A stretch of 64,000 nucleotides of DNA from Stentor roeselii (lineage: Eukaryota; Ciliophora; Heterotrichea; Heterotrichida; Stentoridae), in contig RSEH01000206.1 in assembly GCA_006503475.1 (NCBI GenBank), positions 23,875 through 87,874 on the forward strand. The letters are read 5' to 3'. Position 1 is the stretch's first letter, and each line of letters begins with the position of its first letter. The notes under the pieces were generated by a model. That model did no database searches, had not been told where the DNA came from, and was given only the letters and a program-made list of their open reading frames with translations. This document shows positions 6,407-47,749 of this stretch, piece after piece. The position numbers and the translations under genes were made by a program.

Positions 6407-6435
6407 AAATGATTATTATGATTCTTTAAAGTACC
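6407..6435. promoter_or_regulatory. 29-nt divergent gap between two start codons
   Basis: The PKG ATG (6406, minus) and the MYND-kinase ATG (6436, plus) are separated by only 29 nt of AT-rich sequence. If both ATGs are correct, both promoters must overlap each other or lie inside coding DNA. A second in-frame ATG at 6451 would widen the gap to 44 nt. Confidence 0.5.
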
Positions 6436-7836
6436 ATGGTTATAAAAATAATGAACTGCAAAAATAAATTCTGCTCGAACTCGGCTGTTGACAATAAAAT
6501 TTGTCCTAGTTGCTGCAAGGTCATGTATTGTTCTGATGCATGTCTTAAAATTGACTGGGATAGTCATAAAAACTCATGTACTCCTCATTTTTTCATATTG
6601 AAAGACCTGGTCACTATCAAAAACTCAGCTAAAAGTATTCTTGGAAGAGGGGCTTATGGAGAAGTGCAACTTGTTCAACATGCCAGATCGAAGATTTTGT
6701 ATGCACTTAAGATTATTAAGAAGGATAACTTGAACTATCAGACACCTGTTGAGATCTTTTTAAGGGAAATTTCTATTCATAAGTCGGTCATTCATCCGAA
6801 TATTACGAGGCTTTACGACCATCTCGAAGACAAGCAAAAATTCTATCTAATTCTCGAATACGTAGAAAAAGGCAGCCTGTATAATTTAATTAAAAAGAAA
6901 ATCAAGCTCTCCGAGTTAGAAGCCTGCGAAATTTTCAAACAAGCCTGCGTAGGAGTGAGTTTCCTTCACGACAACAAAATAATCCACCGTGACATAAAAT
7001 CCGAAAATTTTCTAATAAGCAAAGACGACATCGTGAAACTCTGCGATTTCGGCTGGTGCGCGATTGGAATTCAACCACGTGCAACATTTTGCGGAACAGC
7101 AGACTACATGGCTCCAGAAATGACGAGCAGCGAGAGCTACAACCACAAAGTCGACGTCTGGGCCTTGGGGATCCTTTTATACGAGTTAGTCCACGGCAGG
7201 CCTCCTTTTTTAACTGTGAACATTTTCGATAAACTTCAAGAAATCGAATCAGGAAATCTTCAAATAAGACCTGGGGTCTCTGAGTCACTTGCAAGCCTTA
7301 TTCGCATGATTTTGAATAAAAATCCTGAAGAAAGACCGGAAATTAGAGATATTCTTAAACATCACTGGTTTTCAGAAAGGATCAGCTGTAAGTTTCGAGT
7401 TGGAAACGCTGTTAAACACCCGGAATTTGGAGATGGTACTGTTGTTGATACTCAGGGAATGATGTGTATTTTGGAGTTCGGGAATAAAACGGTTGAAATG
7501 ATTGATGTTGAAATTCAGAGAATATGTGAAAGTAAAGCTAATCGAAGTAGTGTTACTAGAAGTCAGGAATTCAGGAATCGACCTCCTCTTGCCAAGGCGG
7601 TTGATAAAAGTCCGAAGATTAGTATTAACAAGGTCAACTCGCAGAAGGAGTTCTTGAAAAAGTCACCCTTGCCTAAGAGGGTAAGTGTTTTAAACACTTC
7701 TGTTGAAAGTTTACTTAGTCCTGCAACTCGTGCCAAGAAAAAAAGAGGAACTTTGTTTGACTTTAGCTTTGATGGAGTTTGTGATATTTCTTCGTTGTCG
7801 CCTGTTAAAGAAAGACGGAGAAGTCCTTTAGCTTAG
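6436..7836 (+). CDS. Aurora-like protein kinase with N-terminal MYND zinc finger
   Basis: The 466-aa protein starts with a Cys/His cluster (residues about 7-48: CKNKFC, CPSCC, YCSDAC, DWDSHKNSC) that matches a MYND finger, normally a protein-interaction module. A complete Ser/Thr kinase follows at about 60-315: LGRGAYGEVQLV, ALKIIKK, IIHRDIKSENFL, DFGW and an Aurora-like TFCGTADYMAPEM. A short block at about 320-365 (VKHPEFGDGTVVDTQG) resembles the Tudor-like beta module found at the C-terminus of PcrA/UvrD helicases. The basic Ser-rich tail (KKRGTLFDF) may be regulatory. Start choice: ATG 6436, with 6451 in frame as an alternative. The domain combination is unusual; substrates are unknown. 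Confidence 0.85.
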   Translation: MVIKIMNCKNKFCSNSAVDNKICPSCCKVMYCSDACLKIDWDSHKNSCTPHFFILKDLVTIKNSAKSILGRGAYGEVQLVQHARSKILYALKIIKKDNLNYQTPVEIFLREISIHKSVIHPNITRLYDHLEDKQKFYLILEYVEKGSLYNLIKKKIKLSELEACEIFKQACVGVSFLHDNKIIHRDIKSENFLISKDDIVKLCDFGWCAIGIQPRATFCGTADYMAPEMTSSESYNHKVDVWALGILLYELVHGRPPFLTVNIFDKLQEIESGNLQIRPGVSESLASLIRMILNKNPEERPEIRDILKHHWFSERISCKFRVGNAVKHPEFGDGTVVDTQGMMCILEFGNKTVEMIDVEIQRICESKANRSSVTRSQEFRNRPPLAKAVDKSPKISINKVNSQKEFLKKSPLPKRVSVLNTSVESLLSPATRAKKKRGTLFDFSFDGVCDISSLSPVKERRRSPLA

Positions 7837-32199: not shown

Positions 32200-34218
32200 C
32201 TACACATTAGAATTATTATTTTTTTCATTTAATCCACTTTTTTCCTTTTCATCCTCCAAAAAGCTTTTACGTCTCGAGGAAGACTTATAACTATCCCAGA
32301 ACAGTTGATTAGCCAGAAGTTGCTGAACACATTTTTCATCAATAACAGAAGAAGCAAGTACCACATTCAAAGTAGAAAACAAAGGAAAAACGATATTTTT
32401 AATAAAACCCGACTGAGACTTTCCAATATCCGTAGTTTCTCGATCACAGTACATCGAAACAGGAAGACCAAGTTGTTTTTCAAGGTCTCCCTGTTCATAA
32501 AACTCCTGAATAACAAGTCCACACCACTTTTCATGCAACTCAATAGATTTCGCGGCATGTCCAATATCAGCAGCCTTAATAATAAGTTTAAACAAATCAG
32601 CTCTAGTTTCCGCATCATCAAAATTATGATGTTCCGCACTAAGATACTTCGCTTTAAAAATCCCCAAAAGTTCAAAATGTTTTCCCATATCAGTCGCAAG
32701 TATCATATCAATAATATCCTTCCTCATAATAGCAAACTTTTCATCATTAAGTGAAACAAGTAAATTATTATCAGGTTTCTGCAGAATTTGAAAGAGTTTC
32801 GACGAGTGCATCATTTCTAAAACGCTCATATCATTATAAGTTATCGCGATTTCATCTCTGCTCATCACGATAAACCTGTTATTCTTACCCGGGTGGCCCA
32901 GGTCATGAGCGAGGGCCGAGATGATATTTGCCAGGAGCTCTAAAGACGTGAGACTTTCAATCAAACCTGAAGATTCAAGCAAAAAGACCGAAGAACACAT
33001 CACGTCTGCCGCATGGATCGAGTTGTGATAAGGATTTTTCAAGTAGGCACTTTCCATTTCTAGCAAAAAAGCATTCAACCTTCCTTCCGGGATCTGAAAA
33101 GCCTCGTCAAGACCAAAGCGTTTTATTGAATAAGACCCGATTACTTGTAAAGGAAGGTCATTTGTGCAGTTTGAAATGAAAAAAGTGTTGAAGTTCCAGT
33201 CTTTCCCGATATTTTTTAAGATTCCTAAAAGTTCTGACATACCGTAAGATGTTTCTCGGTCTTTTGGAAGGGGAAAGTCGAGTTTCGAGGTCCTTCTGCT
33301 GGAGACGTAGCTTTCGAAACAGGCCTGTTCGATGAAAATCTTGTCTTGTGCGTCGATGTCCTTCAGCACTGAGCTCATGTTTGCAGAGTAGATGTTCGGA
33401 GTTTGTCTCAAGGCTTTGTTTACCAGTTGAAGTTGACTGATGATTTTATTGAAATTGTTCGGGTTTTCATCGTTTTCGTGAATTTCTTGCATCTTGTGAA
33501 GGATTCCGTCTAGATTTGAAAGAATGTCTTCTACTCCTGTCGTAACTGGACCTGTTTGAACAGGTTTCGTCTTTGAAACTACTGTCTTTGAGTACAGTGC
33601 TCCGGTGGATAAGTAGATAAACAACAGGAAAAAGTGGAAAATTACTGAAAGTTTAGAAGTTTCGTTTGAAGATTGAATTATCGTCAGGATAAAAGACGTA
33701 GAACCCAACATTGTCATTACTGCAAAAGTCTTTAAAGTGCTTGACAAGTACCGATAACTCAAAGCTGCAAACAACACTAAAACCTGCAAACTAGAAAGAC
33801 TCGATTTCAAGTCCTTATAAAAAAGTCCAAAAACTGTTCTAGGGTCAAGCAACACAATCAAAAAAGCAGAGAAAAAAATCAAAGAAGTTCTATTAAAAAT
33901 TCGAGAAAGTCTTGAAAACGATTCATGTTCTTCTGATAAAATACACATCGAGCTGAAAAGCAAAACAAAAAGCAAAAGAACAGTCGTCGTGATCAAACAA
34001 GGCGAAAAGTTCATATCAAGTCCCATATAAACCAAACTATTCGAAAAGCTTAAAAACAAAATCAGGTAAAACTTCAAGTAAAAGTTTCTTCCAGGCTCAA
34101 GTAAAGCTTGAGGCTTCTGATTTTCTCTTGGTTTTAAACTTTTCTGAGGTTCTGAAAAGTGCTCAAAGTCGATAAAGCTGGTATGTTGAGACGTGTCCTG
34201 AATTTTCTGAGGGTTCAT
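32200..34218 (-). CDS. Membrane-bound 3',5'-cyclic nucleotide phosphodiesterase
   Basis: Class I PDE of 672 aa. About six hydrophobic helices lie within residues 48-215, followed by a linker and an HD-type catalytic domain (about 360-620). The metal-binding residues are visible in HNSIHAADV, AHDLGHPG and IIKAADIGHAAK. The helix-plus-catalytic layout is common in alveolate PDEs. It would hydrolyse cGMP and/or cAMP; with a guanylyl cyclase and PKG in the same window, cGMP is plausible but not shown by sequence. The upstream membrane RING gene stops 11 nt before its start. Confidence 0.9.
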   Translation of the reverse strand: MNPQKIQDTSQHTSFIDFEHFSEPQKSLKPRENQKPQALLEPGRNFYLKFYLILFLSFSNSLVYMGLDMNFSPCLITTTVLLLFVLLFSSMCILSEEHESFSRLSRIFNRTSLIFFSAFLIVLLDPRTVFGLFYKDLKSSLSSLQVLVLFAALSYRYLSSTLKTFAVMTMLGSTSFILTIIQSSNETSKLSVIFHFFLLFIYLSTGALYSKTVVSKTKPVQTGPVTTGVEDILSNLDGILHKMQEIHENDENPNNFNKIISQLQLVNKALRQTPNIYSANMSSVLKDIDAQDKIFIEQACFESYVSSRRTSKLDFPLPKDRETSYGMSELLGILKNIGKDWNFNTFFISNCTNDLPLQVIGSYSIKRFGLDEAFQIPEGRLNAFLLEMESAYLKNPYHNSIHAADVMCSSVFLLESSGLIESLTSLELLANIISALAHDLGHPGKNNRFIVMSRDEIAITYNDMSVLEMMHSSKLFQILQKPDNNLLVSLNDEKFAIMRKDIIDMILATDMGKHFELLGIFKAKYLSAEHHNFDDAETRADLFKLIIKAADIGHAAKSIELHEKWCGLVIQEFYEQGDLEKQLGLPVSMYCDRETTDIGKSQSGFIKNIVFPLFSTLNVVLASSVIDEKCVQQLLANQLFWDSYKSSSRRKSFLEDEKEKSGLNEKNNNSNV

Positions 34219-34229
34219 TTATTAAATAA

Positions 34230-35352
34230 CTACTTCTGGTTCGACTGGTCCAGAAAACTCGAGTCAGACACCAAAGGAAAAAGATTAGTCTTACAAACTG
34301 GGCAAAAGGGAATATTCAAGTTGTTTCTCACCCAGTTTTCAATGCAACTCGTGTGAAAAATATGCTTACAAGGCGTTTTTCTCACAAGTCCATCAACAAT
34401 AAATCTGTTTAAAACTCACTCATCAAAGCAAATAGGACAAGCAGGTTCTCCAACTTCTTGAAGACTTTTCTCGTACTTGATAACAGGGAGAACTTGATTT
34501 AAATTTTCATCTGAGATCTGAATTAAAGAGTTTTCTGGAATCACTTGATAAATCCTTGAACGTGCTTGGGTCCTTCTTCGGTTTCGCAGTCTCCAGGCTC
34601 TTGAGAACTTGAAACAGCAGAAGACGCAGCAGGAGCAACAAAGAAATAAAACAACTGAGACTGTGATGATCGCGACGATGCTTTCAATGTTAAGTTCACT
34701 TTTCTGACTTCCACATTTCCAAGAGATTTCAAGGTTTCCGTAGTAGTTTTGATTAGTTCCAGTGAAATAAACAATGTTCAAAAAATCGTCTTTCATCCAG
34801 ACCCCTTTTTTCCAGTTATTTTTTAAAGACTCGCCTTTATACTGGGAAAAGTCGTTGATTGAGGATGGAAGACGATAAGAAAGAACCAGAAGAGACCCGG
34901 CAGGCTGTTTAAAGAATACAAATGAACGTTTTATTTGGAGAAAAAGTGAAAGATCTGTCGAAGTTGAAAGAGCCTCACGCATGTCTAACACCCACTCGCA
35001 TAAACAACCGCCTGGCATCGGCTGGGACAAGCTGAAAAGACCTGAGCTTGACTTCGTCATTTGCACTCGGCAGACCTCAGTTTTAAATGAACAGTCTGGA
35101 AAGGAAGAGACCTCCGAGCAGAGCACTGAAGAGTTCCCTTCAAGACAGGAACTACAGGAATTATCGCAGGTTAAGTCTGATTCTAAACAAATAGAATTTT
35201 TGCAGATGTTGCTGAGTTTTTATTACTGGAGCCATAGTTCTTCACCTTTGAAACACTTCGTGCAAGGCTGGGAACAAGAAAGAGTTTGATGGATTATAAG
35301 GAACAAATGGATCAGCTTTATTATACTTAAGATAAATTGAATTGAGATTCAT
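34230..35352 (-). CDS. Single-pass membrane RING-H2 protein with Cys-rich ectodomain; start disrupted
   Basis: Two 15-nt introns (35212-35226, 34405-34419) join exons into a Cys-rich segment (CTKCFKGEELWLHNICKNS, CDNSCSSC), a luminal domain, a transmembrane helix (ESIVAIITVSVVLFLCC) and a RING-H2 finger completed across the second intron (CPICFDE, then CKHIFHTSC...CPVC). It ends in TAG at 34230-34232. The architecture suggests a membrane ubiquitin ligase. The N-terminus is a problem: the hydrophobic signal-like stretch (LIHLFLIIH) is open from 35348 but has no in-frame ATG. The ATG at 35350-35352 is one base out of frame. Exon 3 and the RING are secure; the start is uncertain. Confidence 0.72.
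34405..34419 (-). other. 15-nt intron completing the RING-H2 finger
   Basis: On minus gtgagttttaaacag; its removal joins GAT GA to A TTT ATT and supplies the second half of the RING. Adenine at position 10. Confidence 0.92.
35212..35226 (-). other. 15-nt intron in the Cys-rich ectodomain
   Basis: On minus gtaataaaaactcag; it contains an in-frame TAA, and its removal joins CTC CA to C AAC ATC. Adenine at position 10. Confidence 0.88.
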
Positions 35353-35374: not shown

Positions 35375-36619
35375 ATGGAAGGAAATCATTTGGAAAATCT
35401 TGGAATTCATGAAATTTTAGAAGTATTCGCTCGTGGAAATAAAGTGGCTGGAGAGGAAAGTGAAGTCATTGTAAAAACTTTTGAAAATTTTGCAGTAAAG
35501 CTTACAAAAAAACAACATAATTACCAATATGATTTTTTAACAAATTATAGGAAAATTAACTTTCCTAATGTTATTAAAATATACAATGTTGTTGAACTGG
35601 AAAATTGTTTTTATACGAAAATGGAAAAACTTTCAGAAGTTTCTCAAGGATTTAAGTCGTATAATGAAGCTTTTCGATTTTTAAAAGATTGTATCAATGG
35701 ATTGTTTGATTTACAGAAAAATGAAATCGCTCATAATGATATAAAAAATAAAAATATTATGAAAACAGATGACGGTGTGTTTAAAATCATCGATTTGGAT
35801 TATATTACAGTTGACAAGCACGACAAAAACGGTTTTAAAAATTCAAATTCAAATATTTTTACTGGAACTCCTGGATATTATAGTCCTGAACGTTTGAAAC
35901 AGAGTGAATTATATAATTTAGGCATAGAATTTAAGATAAATGCATATAAAAGTGATGTATATTCACTCGGAATCAGTTTTTTGAATCTTTTATTCTTTAC
36001 TTTTAATGGATATTATTGTAATTTACCTCTAGATAATCAAAATATTGAGGATCTGATTAATAATTTACCAGAGCCTTACAGTAATTTTAGGGAAATCATT
36101 ACAGAAATGTTGAATGATAATCCTGATCAAAGAGTAGATGCCATAGATCTCTATTATCAATTCCATGAAAAATTTGAAACTTGTCAGAAACTCTCAGGCT
36201 CCTGCTTTCTATGTAAATCTGAAAATACCCCTGAAAATGATTTATTTATTCTAGAAAATCGAGGAGTCTGCTGCAGAGACTGCATAAAAATAGTCCATTA
36301 TCAATTTAAAAAGTAATAAAAATCTAGGAACGAGCTGTACTAAACACTTAGTGAATGCTCTGAATGTTCTAACATAAACTGTGCTCATCTCTTTTGCTTC
36401 ATCTGCAAGTCATTAACCCACAACAGTTCCTGTGCTGAGCAAGAAGGAAGATCAATGATGAAAATCAAATGTCTTCAAAAGAACTGCACATCTTACCTCC
36501 TTCCAACAATCTCTTACTTCAAAAAATGTGAGGAAGACCACTACACCTGCATCGTCTGTTTCGGGGGTCTATGGCTTTCTCATGAAGTCTGCTCAAAATT
36601 CTATTCACTCGGTTATTAA
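35375..36619 (+). CDS. Divergent protein kinase fused to Cys-rich IBR-like zinc module
   Basis: Three exons (35375-36312, 36328-36336, 36352-36619) join to 404 aa ending in TAA. Residues about 15-270 are a divergent kinase: FAVKL lysine, IAHNDIKNKNI (HND instead of HRD, Asp kept), IIDLDYI (DLD instead of DFG), GTPGYYSPERL. After residue 275 comes a zinc-ligand-rich region: CFLCKSE, CCRDC, CSEC, then CAHLFCFICKSLTHNSSC and later CIVCFGGLWLSHEVC, whose spacing resembles IBR fingers of RBR ubiquitin ligases. The middle exon is only 9 nt. The divergent membrane RING gene's ATG lies 22 nt upstream. Catalytic activity of either half is unproven. Confidence 0.78.
36313..36327 (+). other. 15-nt intron 1 of kinase-IBR gene
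   Basis: gtaataaaaatctag; removes an in-frame TAA. Followed by a 9-nt exon (36328-36336). Adenine at position 10. Confidence 0.9.
36337..36351 (+). other. 15-nt intron 2 of kinase-IBR gene
   Basis: gtactaaacacttag; removes an in-frame TAA and joins GAG CT to T GAA TGC, opening the Cys-rich exon. Adenine at position 10. Confidence 0.9.
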
Positions 36620-43998: not shown

Positions 43999-46047
43999 AT
44001 GTCATCAAAGCCAATTCTTCCTCTTCCCCCAACATGTGAAATATACCTAAAAAGCGATTTCGAATTCCAAAGAAAAATCGGTTCAGGAGCATTCGGGCAA
44101 GTATGGCGAGTACGTCACAAGCGTTCTCTAATCCAATTCGCAATAAAGCAGATCCAGCGTTTAAAGATCCTGCGAATCCAAGACCAATTCAAGCGAGAGC
44201 TTCAAATAATGTATTCTCTGAGCCACCCTTACATAGTAAAACTTCTGAGTCACTTCGAAGACGACAAATACATTTACATGTTGATGGAACTATCGGAAGG
44301 AGGTAGTTTATTTTACAAGTTATCCCAAGAAAATGTTTTGTTAGAGCGAGTAGCTGCTCAGTATTTCCGAGAAGTGGCCTCAGCGATCGAGTATCTTCAC
44401 GGAAAAGACCCGGCGATCATTCATCGCGATGTCAAGCCGGAGAACATTTTGATACAAAAGTCAGGAGAAGTCAAACTCACTGACTTCGGGTGGGCGAATT
44501 ACGTCACACAGCCTGGGGAAAGGACCACTGCTTGTGGGACTTTAGAGTACCTTCCTCCTGAGATGATTGAAGAGAAAGGTCATGACACTTGTGCGGATAT
44601 CTGGTGTCTTGGAATACTTTTGTATGAAATGCTTGCTGGGATTACACCTTTTAAAGCCTCTGGAAGGGATAAAATCCTTGCAAATATCAAGAAGTCACCT
44701 TTGAAGTTCCCGAGGGGATTCCCTCCTCTTGCCAAGGACTTGATTGTCAGGATGCTTGAAAAGGATAAAGCGAAAAGATTTAATATTTTGCAGGTCAAGT
44801 CGCATAAATGGCTACTTACTGTTCCTCCTTTAAGAGAACTTTTACTGCTAATCGTTGCAAAGCCACCTCCACCTGCAGCTTATCAGAATAATGAAACTGA
44901 AAACTCTTGCTCTGAAAATGAAATTGAAGAAGAAGTTAAACATCCTCCAGAAAACACTTTTCGGAAAAGTATCTTGATGCTTAAAACAAGTCTTCAAAAA
45001 AAAAGCTTGCAAGTTGTCAGTCAGAGAAATAGTTTAAAAGTAGTAAACAACGAGATGGAGGTTTTAAACTTCCGGGTGAAAGAACTTCATGAAAAAATAG
45101 AAGAAAAAAGACTAGAAATCACTAATGTTAGCTTCAAGAACAAAGAAATGCTCACTCAAATCTTTGACTTCAACCTGGACCTTGAAAAACTCCAGGACCT
45201 TGGAAGTTTCTACTCCGGGAACGACATGAAAGACATGGTCGAACGACATCTTCACTTAAAAAAACTAGTAAACCTTCAAAAAATCATCTTGGAAAGCTTG
45301 AAACTCGAAGTAGTCTCCCTTTGCAAGAACAAATATGAATCCGAATCAACTCTCAAGTCCCTTCAAAACTACTTCCATGACCTGGAAACCTCGACATTCA
45401 GTAAAAAGTCCTCGCAAAGCTCAACTCTCCATGAAATGCAGCAAAACCTTTCCAAGCTCAAGTCACAGCTGAAGGAAAAAACCAGTTCAACCCTTTCAAT
45501 CGACCAGAGCCACTTCAAAGAACTGACGAGTTTCGTACGTGAAAAGCTTCCTTCTTTTCCAAACATGCACCGAGAACTGACCAGGAAGTTAGAAGTAGCA
45601 GAAGACCAGGGGAACGACAAAGAGCAACAAATTTCAGAGCTTACTATCGAGTTCGAAATGAAAAAATCACAAAAACTTTACAATTTAAGGAAAAAACGTG
45701 ATGAAATTTTAAGAAATCACAGAAAAATCAAAGAAGAAGGCAGAATAAAAGCACAAAAAGATCTAGATTCAAGAATTCAGGACTTCAGGGAGCGACTGGC
45801 CAGTTCTCGAAAAGCTGAACAGGTCGACCCTATGGACCTGAAACGTGTGAAGAAGCGTTTAAAGGTACGTCTCACTTAGACCTTGAAAGACGCTTTAGAA
45901 AGACTGAGCAAGATGAGAAGTAAGAAAATGAAAGAGCATCTTCAAAGTCGAGAAGAAATCGAAAAAAACAAAGACCGCATCTTGGACTTCGAACTTGAAA
46001 TGGGAAGACTCAAAGCGTGTTACTTTTACACTGAGATCTGTGAATAG
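43999..46047 (+). CDS. Aurora-like protein kinase with long C-terminal coiled coil
   Basis: 677 aa from exons 43999-45864 and 45880-46047, joined across a 15-nt intron, ending in TAG. The kinase domain (about 18-275) has IGSGAFGQVWRV, FAIKQIQRLK, IIHRDVKPENILI, DFGWANY and the Aurora-type TTACGTLEYLPPEMI. The remaining 400 residues are predicted coiled coil with repeated Lys/Glu heptads, unlike metazoan Auroras, which are short. The activation-loop Thr is present. The usual role would be spindle or basal-body control; the long tail may direct it to a cytoskeletal site. A Tim44-like gene starts 22 nt after the stop. Confidence 0.88.
45865..45879 (+). other. 15-nt intron of Aurora-like kinase
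   Basis: gtacgtctcacttag; joins TTA AAG to ACC TTG and extends the coiled coil by 55 residues. Adenine at position 10. Confidence 0.9.
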
Positions 46048-46069
46048 AATATTTAATATAAGAATTAAA

Positions 46070-47749
46070 ATGTTCAGAGGGATCCGAAGAGTTCTAAATG
46101 TCAGAACGTTTACCAGCTCAAAAGACCCTCAGACACTTAAAGACCAGTTCAAAAAAATGACAGAAATTCACAGCCAGGCCTCGAAAGACTCGAAAGAAAC
46201 AACTGAAGACATCAAAGTCACTGACCAGGAAAAAGCCACGGAAGACCTCAAATCTAAATTCGACCTTTTCAAGACTGACCTGTCGAAAAACACTGGAGAA
46301 GCTAAAAGTGTCTTTGAAAAACTATATGAAACAGCGAAAACTCTTAATAAAGACGACTTGAAGTTCTTCAATAAAGACCAGAAAAACTCATCAAGTAATC
46401 CAAGTACACCATCAGAACAACAGAAGGAAGGAAAGTCTTCTTCAATCTTCAAGATTTTCTCGTCTTCAGCCAACTCACTTGATGATGAACTCAAACAATT
46501 CAAAGAGATTGGAACTAAAAAAGCTCAAGCAGAGTTTCAGGCTGCATCAAAAACTTTTGAAGACCCTGAAATCCTGAAGTTCAAAGAAAAGATCGAAAAA
46601 GACCAAAAGGATCAAAAAGACCAAAAAGATCAAAAAGAACAAAAAGACCAAAAAGACCAAAAAGAAGAAAAGTATGAAAAAGAAGAAGACAAAAAAGATA
46701 AACAAGAATCATGCAACCCTTCCTCAGAACCCAAAAAAAGCTATTACCAAACCTTTTGCCATAAATTCCCCAAAGCCGGGTACTACACTGATGTCTGTGG
46801 CAAGTACGTCGGGGACTTATGGAAAGAAACATTTCCAAGCCCCGAGACCAAGCTTCAAAAACTAGTAAAAATCCACGAAATTCGAAAAATTTCCAGAGAA
46901 CTCGACGAAAAACTGTTAAAAGGTGAAATCACCGAAGACGACCTTCCAGCCTGGAAAAAATCCGCTTTGATAGTTCCAGAAGTAAAAAAGTCTAATTGGC
47001 AGAAGCTTCGAGAAAAGCTTTCAACTCACTCTTCAAAAGCTTCAGTGATTTCCGAGTCTGAAGCTGCAAAATCCGCTTCCTCAAAAATAAAAGACCTGAA
47101 GTCAAAAATCCGTGACTTAAAGACCGAAGTGGCTGACATGAAAGAAGCCGTTAACGAGGCGATTGAAGAGACCGACATTGGAATAGTCCACAAGGCGAAG
47201 AAGGTCGTTCGAGATAACTTGACAGACACAGTGGACGGCAGGACGACGAAGATAATGCGACAACACGACCCTGACTTCGACCTTTACGCAATGGAAGGCG
47301 AGTTGCCTATTCACGTAACTGACTTGTTCAACCACGCCCTTGACGGCGATGAAGATTTTGTGAAAGGAATCGCAACGGGGCAGGCCCTGGAGTACCTAAG
47401 CCTTCACCTGAAGAGCAACCGAGAAACAGAGATAACGAAATACAAATCAGCAGTCTCAACAATCACCAGAACTACTTTTCTTGGATGTAACTTGGATGAT
47501 AAAAATGAGCCGAAAGTCAGCTACTCAATGAAAATCAACTGGGTCATCAGCATTAAACATAAGATTGAATCGAGTAATGAACCTGGCAAAAAAATAGAGA
47601 CAATGGCAAGTGTCAAAAGTCAGTTCGGGAACTTCTTCATCACTATCACACCTCATCCTGATCCTGATGTGATAAGATATCGACACCCGTGGAAGTTTCT
47701 TATCTTCTTTCCTTCTGATGACACTAATAGGGTCGGTAGTTCTAGATAG
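46070..47749 (+). CDS. TIM44: Tim44-like mitochondrial import protein
   Basis: Tim44 anchors the Hsp70 import motor to the TIM23 channel. The 559-aa product starts with an Arg-rich presequence-like leader (MFRGIRRVLNVRTFTSS), has a charged helical middle, a KDQ-repeat run, and a C-terminal domain from about residue 400 (DPDFDLYAMEGELPIHVTDLF, later HPWKFLIFFPS) that resembles the Tim44 C-terminal fold. The central motif KYVGDLWKETFPSPETKLQK is also Tim44-like. I prefer ATG 46070 because an upstream in-frame ATG (45995) lies inside the kinase gene. The identification is moderate, resting on layout and weak motifs. Confidence 0.62.
   Translation: MFRGIRRVLNVRTFTSSKDPQTLKDQFKKMTEIHSQASKDSKETTEDIKVTDQEKATEDLKSKFDLFKTDLSKNTGEAKSVFEKLYETAKTLNKDDLKFFNKDQKNSSSNPSTPSEQQKEGKSSSIFKIFSSSANSLDDELKQFKEIGTKKAQAEFQAASKTFEDPEILKFKEKIEKDQKDQKDQKDQKEQKDQKDQKEEKYEKEEDKKDKQESCNPSSEPKKSYYQTFCHKFPKAGYYTDVCGKYVGDLWKETFPSPETKLQKLVKIHEIRKISRELDEKLLKGEITEDDLPAWKKSALIVPEVKKSNWQKLREKLSTHSSKASVISESEAAKSASSKIKDLKSKIRDLKTEVADMKEAVNEAIEETDIGIVHKAKKVVRDNLTDTVDGRTTKIMRQHDPDFDLYAMEGELPIHVTDLFNHALDGDEDFVKGIATGQALEYLSLHLKSNRETEITKYKSAVSTITRTTFLGCNLDDKNEPKVSYSMKINWVISIKHKIESSNEPGKKIETMASVKSQFGNFFITITPHPDPDVIRYRHPWKFLIFFPSDDTNRVGSSR
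46598..46660 (+). repeat. Seven tandem KDQ-type 9-nt codon repeats
   Basis: Seven 9-nt units encode KDQ (one KEQ) in the charged linker of the Tim44-like protein. Simple coding repeat, likely variable in length between isolates. Confidence 0.8.

Follow-up and report, generated by a model that had tools for sequence, protein, structure and literature searches.

The closest described systems are the RBR (RING1-BRcat-Rcat) E3 ubiquitin ligases, of which HHARI, parkin and HOIP are examples and in which RING1 recruits the E2 and has eight ligands. The cysteine of the Rcat (RING2) finger of these ligases takes ubiquitin from an E2, as described in the cited part of the RBR literature (PMC3940038). 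MAP3K1 (MEKK1), which has N-terminal SWIM and PHD/RING fingers, already unites a kinase with a ubiquitin-ligase part of zinc-finger type in a single chain (PMC13072407). The protein described here was predicted from a 64,000-nucleotide stretch of Stentor roeselii DNA (hereafter the window). It resembled the RBR ligases in the order and ligand spacing of its IBR/BRcat-like and Rcat-like fingers, and RBR proteins of the same genome aligned with the tails of its family; it differed from them in lacking the Rcat catalytic Cys and an eight-ligand RING1, and in carrying a kinase domain in front. It also differed from MAP3K1, the functions of which have been studied, as its fingers form a C-terminal IBR-Rcat pair. 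According to its title, a preprint on the Stentor kinome reports heterotrich kinase families that are expanded and combine domains in new ways, and the kinase-IBR layout may already be listed there. No kinase-IBR protein appeared in the titles or abstract openings among the matches listed in a search of the open-licence literature, a scope that leaves most subscription journals and bioRxiv outside. Our leading explanation, which we hold with about even confidence, is that the window gene belongs to an expanded kinase family in which a Ser/Thr-type kinase has been joined to a tail that resembles an RBR ligase's C-terminal region, with the zinc folds kept without ubiquitin transfer as a docking or regulatory module.

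The gene for the kinase with its Cys/His-rich tail occupied positions 35375-36619 on the plus strand of the window, running from an ATG at 35375 to a stop codon at 36617-36619, and yielded a predicted protein of 404 aa (404 codons) once both 15-nt introns were taken out (Table 1). The kinase frame closed with TAATAA at 36314-36319, inside predicted intron 1. The initial annotation had placed the start codon at 35375 and had located HND, DLD and two Cys/His blocks, and all of these were borne out. It had also proposed that the kinase runs into the tail after splicing, a claim that gained support from the 404-codon frame and from the recurrence of the layout in 20 other genes, and the span that it named for the splice, 36313-36351, encloses both predicted introns. 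Judged by its sequence, the kinase with its Cys/His tail is real and is one protein.

Table 1. Predicted features of the kinase-tail gene (window positions).
Feature	Positions	Strand	Basis
Exon 1: Pkinase domain (approximately residues 34-256, Pfam) and first C4 zinc finger, CFLC...VCCRDC	35375..36312	+	Pkinase 68.5 bits, E 7.9e-19; motifs read directly
Predicted intron 1: 15 nt, GT..AG, GTAATAAAAATCTAG, phase 2, A at position 10, in-frame TAATAA; seen in the window gene only	36313-36327	+	Sequence
Exon 2: 9 nt	36328-36336	+	Follows from the two predicted introns
Predicted intron 2: 15 nt, GT..AG, GTACTAAACACTTAG, phase 2, A at position 10	36337-36351	+	Same place as the single intron of 12 relatives
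Exon 3 and stop codon: the larger part of the IBR-like finger (...CAHLFCFICKSLTHNSSC), then an Rcat-like finger, KCLQKNC...SYFKKC...CIVC...HEVC, that lacks the catalytic Cys	36352..36619	+	Tail alignment; hhalign to RBR proteins

The 44.4-Mb assembly (522 contigs) was searched with the 404-residue protein, giving 96 matches at E <=1, several of which covered both the kinase and the tail. We examined 20 stretches around such kinase-tail matches, 20 around IBR matches and 1 around a further kinase. The kinase-tail stretches and the further kinase allowed at least 20 more genes with the kinase-tail layout to be assembled, and 21 members were read, including the window gene (W; other labels name the contig, so that C150a lies on contig 150). 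The kinase passed into the tail in one frame, with no splicing, in 8 of the 21 (C150a, C11a, C11b, C171, C266, C138, C58 and C494), and the other 12 relatives had one 15-nt phase-2 intron each, between the first finger or fingers and the IBR-like finger. Five further loci (C126, C141, C371, C495, and C213 at 44787-46102 in two pieces) aligned over both halves and were seen as alignments only, bringing the loci with both parts to at least 26. One more gene, C150c, had the kinase and the first finger, and its second exon was not found within the 500 bases examined. Neighbouring copies with diverging tails clustered on C150, C11 and C213. By these sequence comparisons, the window gene is a member of an expanded kinase family and not a lone oddity.

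The length spectrum of GT..AG stretches in the 64-kb window had no clear peak at 15 nt, and a strict scan for 15-nt introns joining two long frames found only 2 in the window. As these window-wide counts give little, the case for the introns rests on the relatives. GT..AG stretches of 14-18 nt were sought near the end of each relative's first frame, and a 15-nt candidate was present in all 12 spliced relatives, with C516 alone having an 18-nt candidate as well. Both window introns shared the phase and the placement, after the C4 finger, of the relatives' introns. Position 10 was an A in 14 of 14 introns (12 in relatives and 2 in the window gene); in the sequences examined, the same was true of 30% of 2189 GT..AG 15-mers and 54% of 111 GTA..TAG 15-mers, both of which sets contain the 14 introns themselves and count overlapping loci twice. 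In Stentor, 15-nt introns carrying A at position 10 have been reported, and the part of that study cited here puts the branch point at position 10 in 90.9% of introns (PMC9505925). Another frame-preserving GT..AG stretch of 15 nt, at 36018-36032, was not taken as an intron because it has C, not A, at position 10. Open frames with 250 codons or more numbered 21 in the window and ended in TAA (10), TAG (9) or TGA (2).

The window protein matched Pfam Pkinase (PF00069) well over the cut-off of 31.7 bits, and three Pfam kinase models stood above their cut-offs. HND replaced HRD and DLD replaced DFG, changes that keep the catalytic and metal-binding Asp and lose the HRD Arg and the DFG Gly; with the HRD arginine lost, the kinase is non-RD by the usual definition. 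Read directly, the domain retained the catalytic-loop Asn (KNKNI), GTPGYYSPE and DVYSLG, and a candidate Lys was present. The nearest solved kinase by sequence was CaMKK2 (2.7e-9). For the relative C516 it was NEK7 (E ~1e-20), though an entry labelled PKR and another kinase ranks first.

A tree was built from 49 kinase domains of the same genome, 22 with the family tail (the 21 members and C150c) and 27 others, leaving out one partial duplicate row and matches shorter than 180 residues. The two groups were separated by one change on the tree (support 63/80), and one change sufficed in 59% of 200 bootstrap trees; this weakly supported split agrees with a single fusion. One of the 27 others, the kinase C31 (L059:479-2014), carried a tail of its own, in which a stretch looked RING-like by eye and IBR was matched at 20.4 bits in the whole protein, under the cut-off of 24.3, and at 25.4 bits in the genome scan, over it. 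Because the kinase of C31 stands outside the family in the tree, albeit on the longest branch (2.66), it likely records a second, separate kinase-RING/IBR joining. A related kinase without the family tail (L039:1412-3022) had an N-terminal Cys/His stretch that looked B-box-like by eye, with no Pfam zinc match.

The divergence of the window kinase allows another explanation, one that we consider unlikely but worth weighing: that this copy is degenerating, as a pseudokinase or an ageing duplicate, with an altered HRD and DFG and a second intron-like insert. Its branch (2.25) was the longest end branch among the family kinases, and it fell in no starred set and had no firm place in the tree. Compared with the 20 relatives one by one, it was 22-26% identical, and its mean of 23.9% was the lowest among the 21 members. 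HRD was present in all 20 other members and D-x-G in 19 of the 20 (C150d has GLG), leaving the window protein the only one of the 21 without HRD and the only one with DLD, and the extra intron was seen in this gene alone. However, removal of two consensus-like introns left a frame open over its full 404 codons, and the catalytic Asp, the Asn and the metal-binding Asp were all retained. The window protein also kept 13 (the HRD His and 12 in the tail) of the 14 Cys/His columns conserved across 17 or more of its 20 relatives.

By sequence and alignment, the window tail consisted of a C4 finger, an IBR-like finger and an Rcat-like finger. The tail alignment, which omitted C150e, C11c and C494 and so covered 18 tails out of 21, had ten invariant Cys/His ligand columns, and in the window copy both later fingers were, by eye, one Cys short of the classic pattern. 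Five members (C138, C266, C58, C171 and C494) had long tails, in which the IBR was preceded by a C4HC3-like finger with eight ligands and by a stretch spaced like a RING, though incompletely so in C171; the short form may have arisen by reduction, or the long form by extension. The two tail blocks had both been described as IBR-like in the initial annotation: the first does correspond to the IBR-like finger, but the second aligns with Rcat. The broader proposal of an IBR-like tail on a kinase drew its support mainly from the relatives, through their Pfam IBR matches and profile alignments, whereas the window tail alone matched no Pfam zinc family and no IBR or RING model. A TVHS-like match in the window tail was weak (E 0.05) and implausible.

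Pfam IBR matched 6 of the 18 family tails at a loose limit of E <=10 (best 2.2e-5) and 4 of the 5 long tails at E <=1. A six-frame scan of the genome with PF01485 returned 134 stretches at E <=1, mostly outside the kinase-tail family; relative to the cut-off of 24.3 bits, C266 (28.1) and C138 (26.7) were over, and C171 and C179 were under. Scanned as whole proteins, C266 and C138 scored 22.7 and 21.9 bits for IBR, both under the cut-off, and Pfam found no IBR at E <=0.01 in the whole C494 protein. Profile-to-profile alignment with hhalign matched the 18 tails to nine RBR proteins of the same genome with a probability of 95.8 (E 7.7e-9), the aligned region covering the last part of the IBR finger together with the Rcat finger, and the profile of the five long tails reached a probability of 90.1 (E 1.6e-6). 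A rerun of the 18-tail alignment scored 52.1, compared with a maximum of 34.0 and a mean of 20.6 in 40 block-order shuffles that kept the Cys/His columns; 40 column shuffles reached at most 17.0, and the reversed profile scored 20.6. Masking Cys brought the score down to 10.3. With the signal vanishing in this way, the homology rests on the ligand pattern, and the tail, as far as its residues can tell, is RBR-like by ligand pattern and order and by little else.

A sequence search of the PDB with the window tail gave no match; in profile searches, none of the 25 rows for the 18 tails or the 23 rows for the long tails was an RBR structure, and none was convincing. Top-ranked for the 18 tails was 6tly_A, a 99-residue chain named "Protein kinase, putative", matched over the last finger (E 0.007); it is zinc-finger-like and perhaps comes from another kinase with a zinc tail. 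For the long tails, the best rows were neurexophilin and Midline-1 (0.011) and several PHD fingers. A single-sequence structure prediction of the window protein, in which the introns were read through with TAA as Gln, had a mean pLDDT of 32.6 and was uninformative. These PDB rows, together with the loss of the profile signal under Cys masking and the lack of a Pfam zinc match in the window tail, would suit an array of zinc fingers of independent origin, IBR-like by ligand spacing and not derived from an RBR protein. We think such an origin rather improbable, given the Pfam IBR matches in both sets of tails, the genome-scan scores of C266 and C138, though both fell under the cut-off as whole proteins, and a finger order that is that of IBR followed by Rcat.

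Eight of the nine RBR proteins compared from the same genome had the catalytic Cys in a GC....C motif, five residues before the third ligand. Among the 18 kinase-family members that could be scored by this rule, Cys occupied the place in none; it was taken by Ser in 10, by His, Gly and Glu in 2 each, and by Leu or Asn in the others. Ser stood there in the window protein (SYFKKC). The three members not scored by rule (C150a, C150e and C11d) had no Cys at that place by eye, so the Rcat-like finger lacked it in 21 of 21, and C11b had a Cys two places further up. Where RING1 would stand, the window protein had a single four-Cys finger, C-x2-C...C-x2-C, and no eight-ligand RING1. Because the Rcat Cys is absent in all 21 and a four-Cys finger replaces RING1, ubiquitin transfer of the RBR type by the window protein is unlikely, which runs counter to the kinase-controlled transfer of that kind first suggested for this gene. 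It is very doubtful that the kinase instead carries a working ligase under its control, with the zinc module binding an E2 as a RING-type adaptor and forming no thioester (compare MAP3K1): the C4HC3-like fingers and RING-like stretches of the five long-tailed relatives and the precedent of a kinase and an E3 in one MAP3K1 chain, as given in the cited passages (PMC13072407), speak for it, but the window protein and the other 15 relatives had only C4 fingers in that place (by eye), RING models were below their cut-offs in all Pfam scans made, and the Rcat Cys is missing throughout. A RING-type role without thioester chemistry is possible mostly as a prospect for the long-tailed members.

The kept ligand pattern and the missing Cys point instead to a divergent kinase with a zinc module for docking or regulation, and thus favour the second option of the initial annotation, a zinc scaffold regulating the kinase. 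Under this model, a Ser/Thr-type kinase domain would have been joined to a tail resembling the C-terminal part of an RBR ligase, and the tail would have retained its zinc folds while losing ubiquitin transfer. By docking ubiquitin, an E2 or a particular partner, the tail could bring the kinase to its substrates or hold it in check. Tandem duplication followed by tail divergence could then have provided each kinase with its own partner, and the docking-module model fits the clusters of neighbouring copies with diverging tails. A bolder version, which we put forward only tentatively and regard as doubtful, is that one ciliate lineage converted the rear portion of an RBR ligase into a modular kinase reader devoid of catalysis and multiplied it to at least 26 loci with diverging tails, the ubiquitin-pathway fold serving as a targeting code for a whole kinase subfamily. 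If the docking model is true, the family would be a clear case of a ligase fold that lost its enzyme chemistry and was retained and multiplied as a partner module for kinases. It would offer a direct way to ask what IBR and Rcat folds bind without catalysis, and would indicate a further route by which very large ciliate kinomes, such as that of Stentor, may have diversified.

Other genes of note were seen in the window and elsewhere in the genome. On the minus strand of the window, at 34230-35219 and divergent to the kinase gene, lay a gene whose open frames, connected across a predicted 15-nt intron at 34405-34419 with A at position 10, showed by eye a RING-H2 finger and a hydrophobic stretch; the open frame begins approximately 155 bases from the kinase ATG, counted from the frame start, from which the true start may differ. 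A cyclic-nucleotide phosphodiesterase (PDEase_I, 253 bits) was encoded on the same strand at 32203-34218, and a kinase with an N-terminal MYND zinc finger (Pfam, 26.1 bits; cut-off 22.7) on the plus strand at 6430-7833. Two proteins (L049:4496-5917 and L051:605-2065) combined a PARP catalytic domain (38.7 and 37.9 bits; cut-off 26.7) with IBR-like fingers, which scored 24.1 and 20.4 bits, under the IBR cut-off of 24.3, but exceeded that cut-off in the genome scan. At L053 (contig C402), L057, L058, L065 and L067 lay long proteins rich in Cys, each having 14 to 22 C-x(1-2)-C pairs; the genome scan matched them to IBR, in some cases under the cut-off, and four lay in a row on C402.
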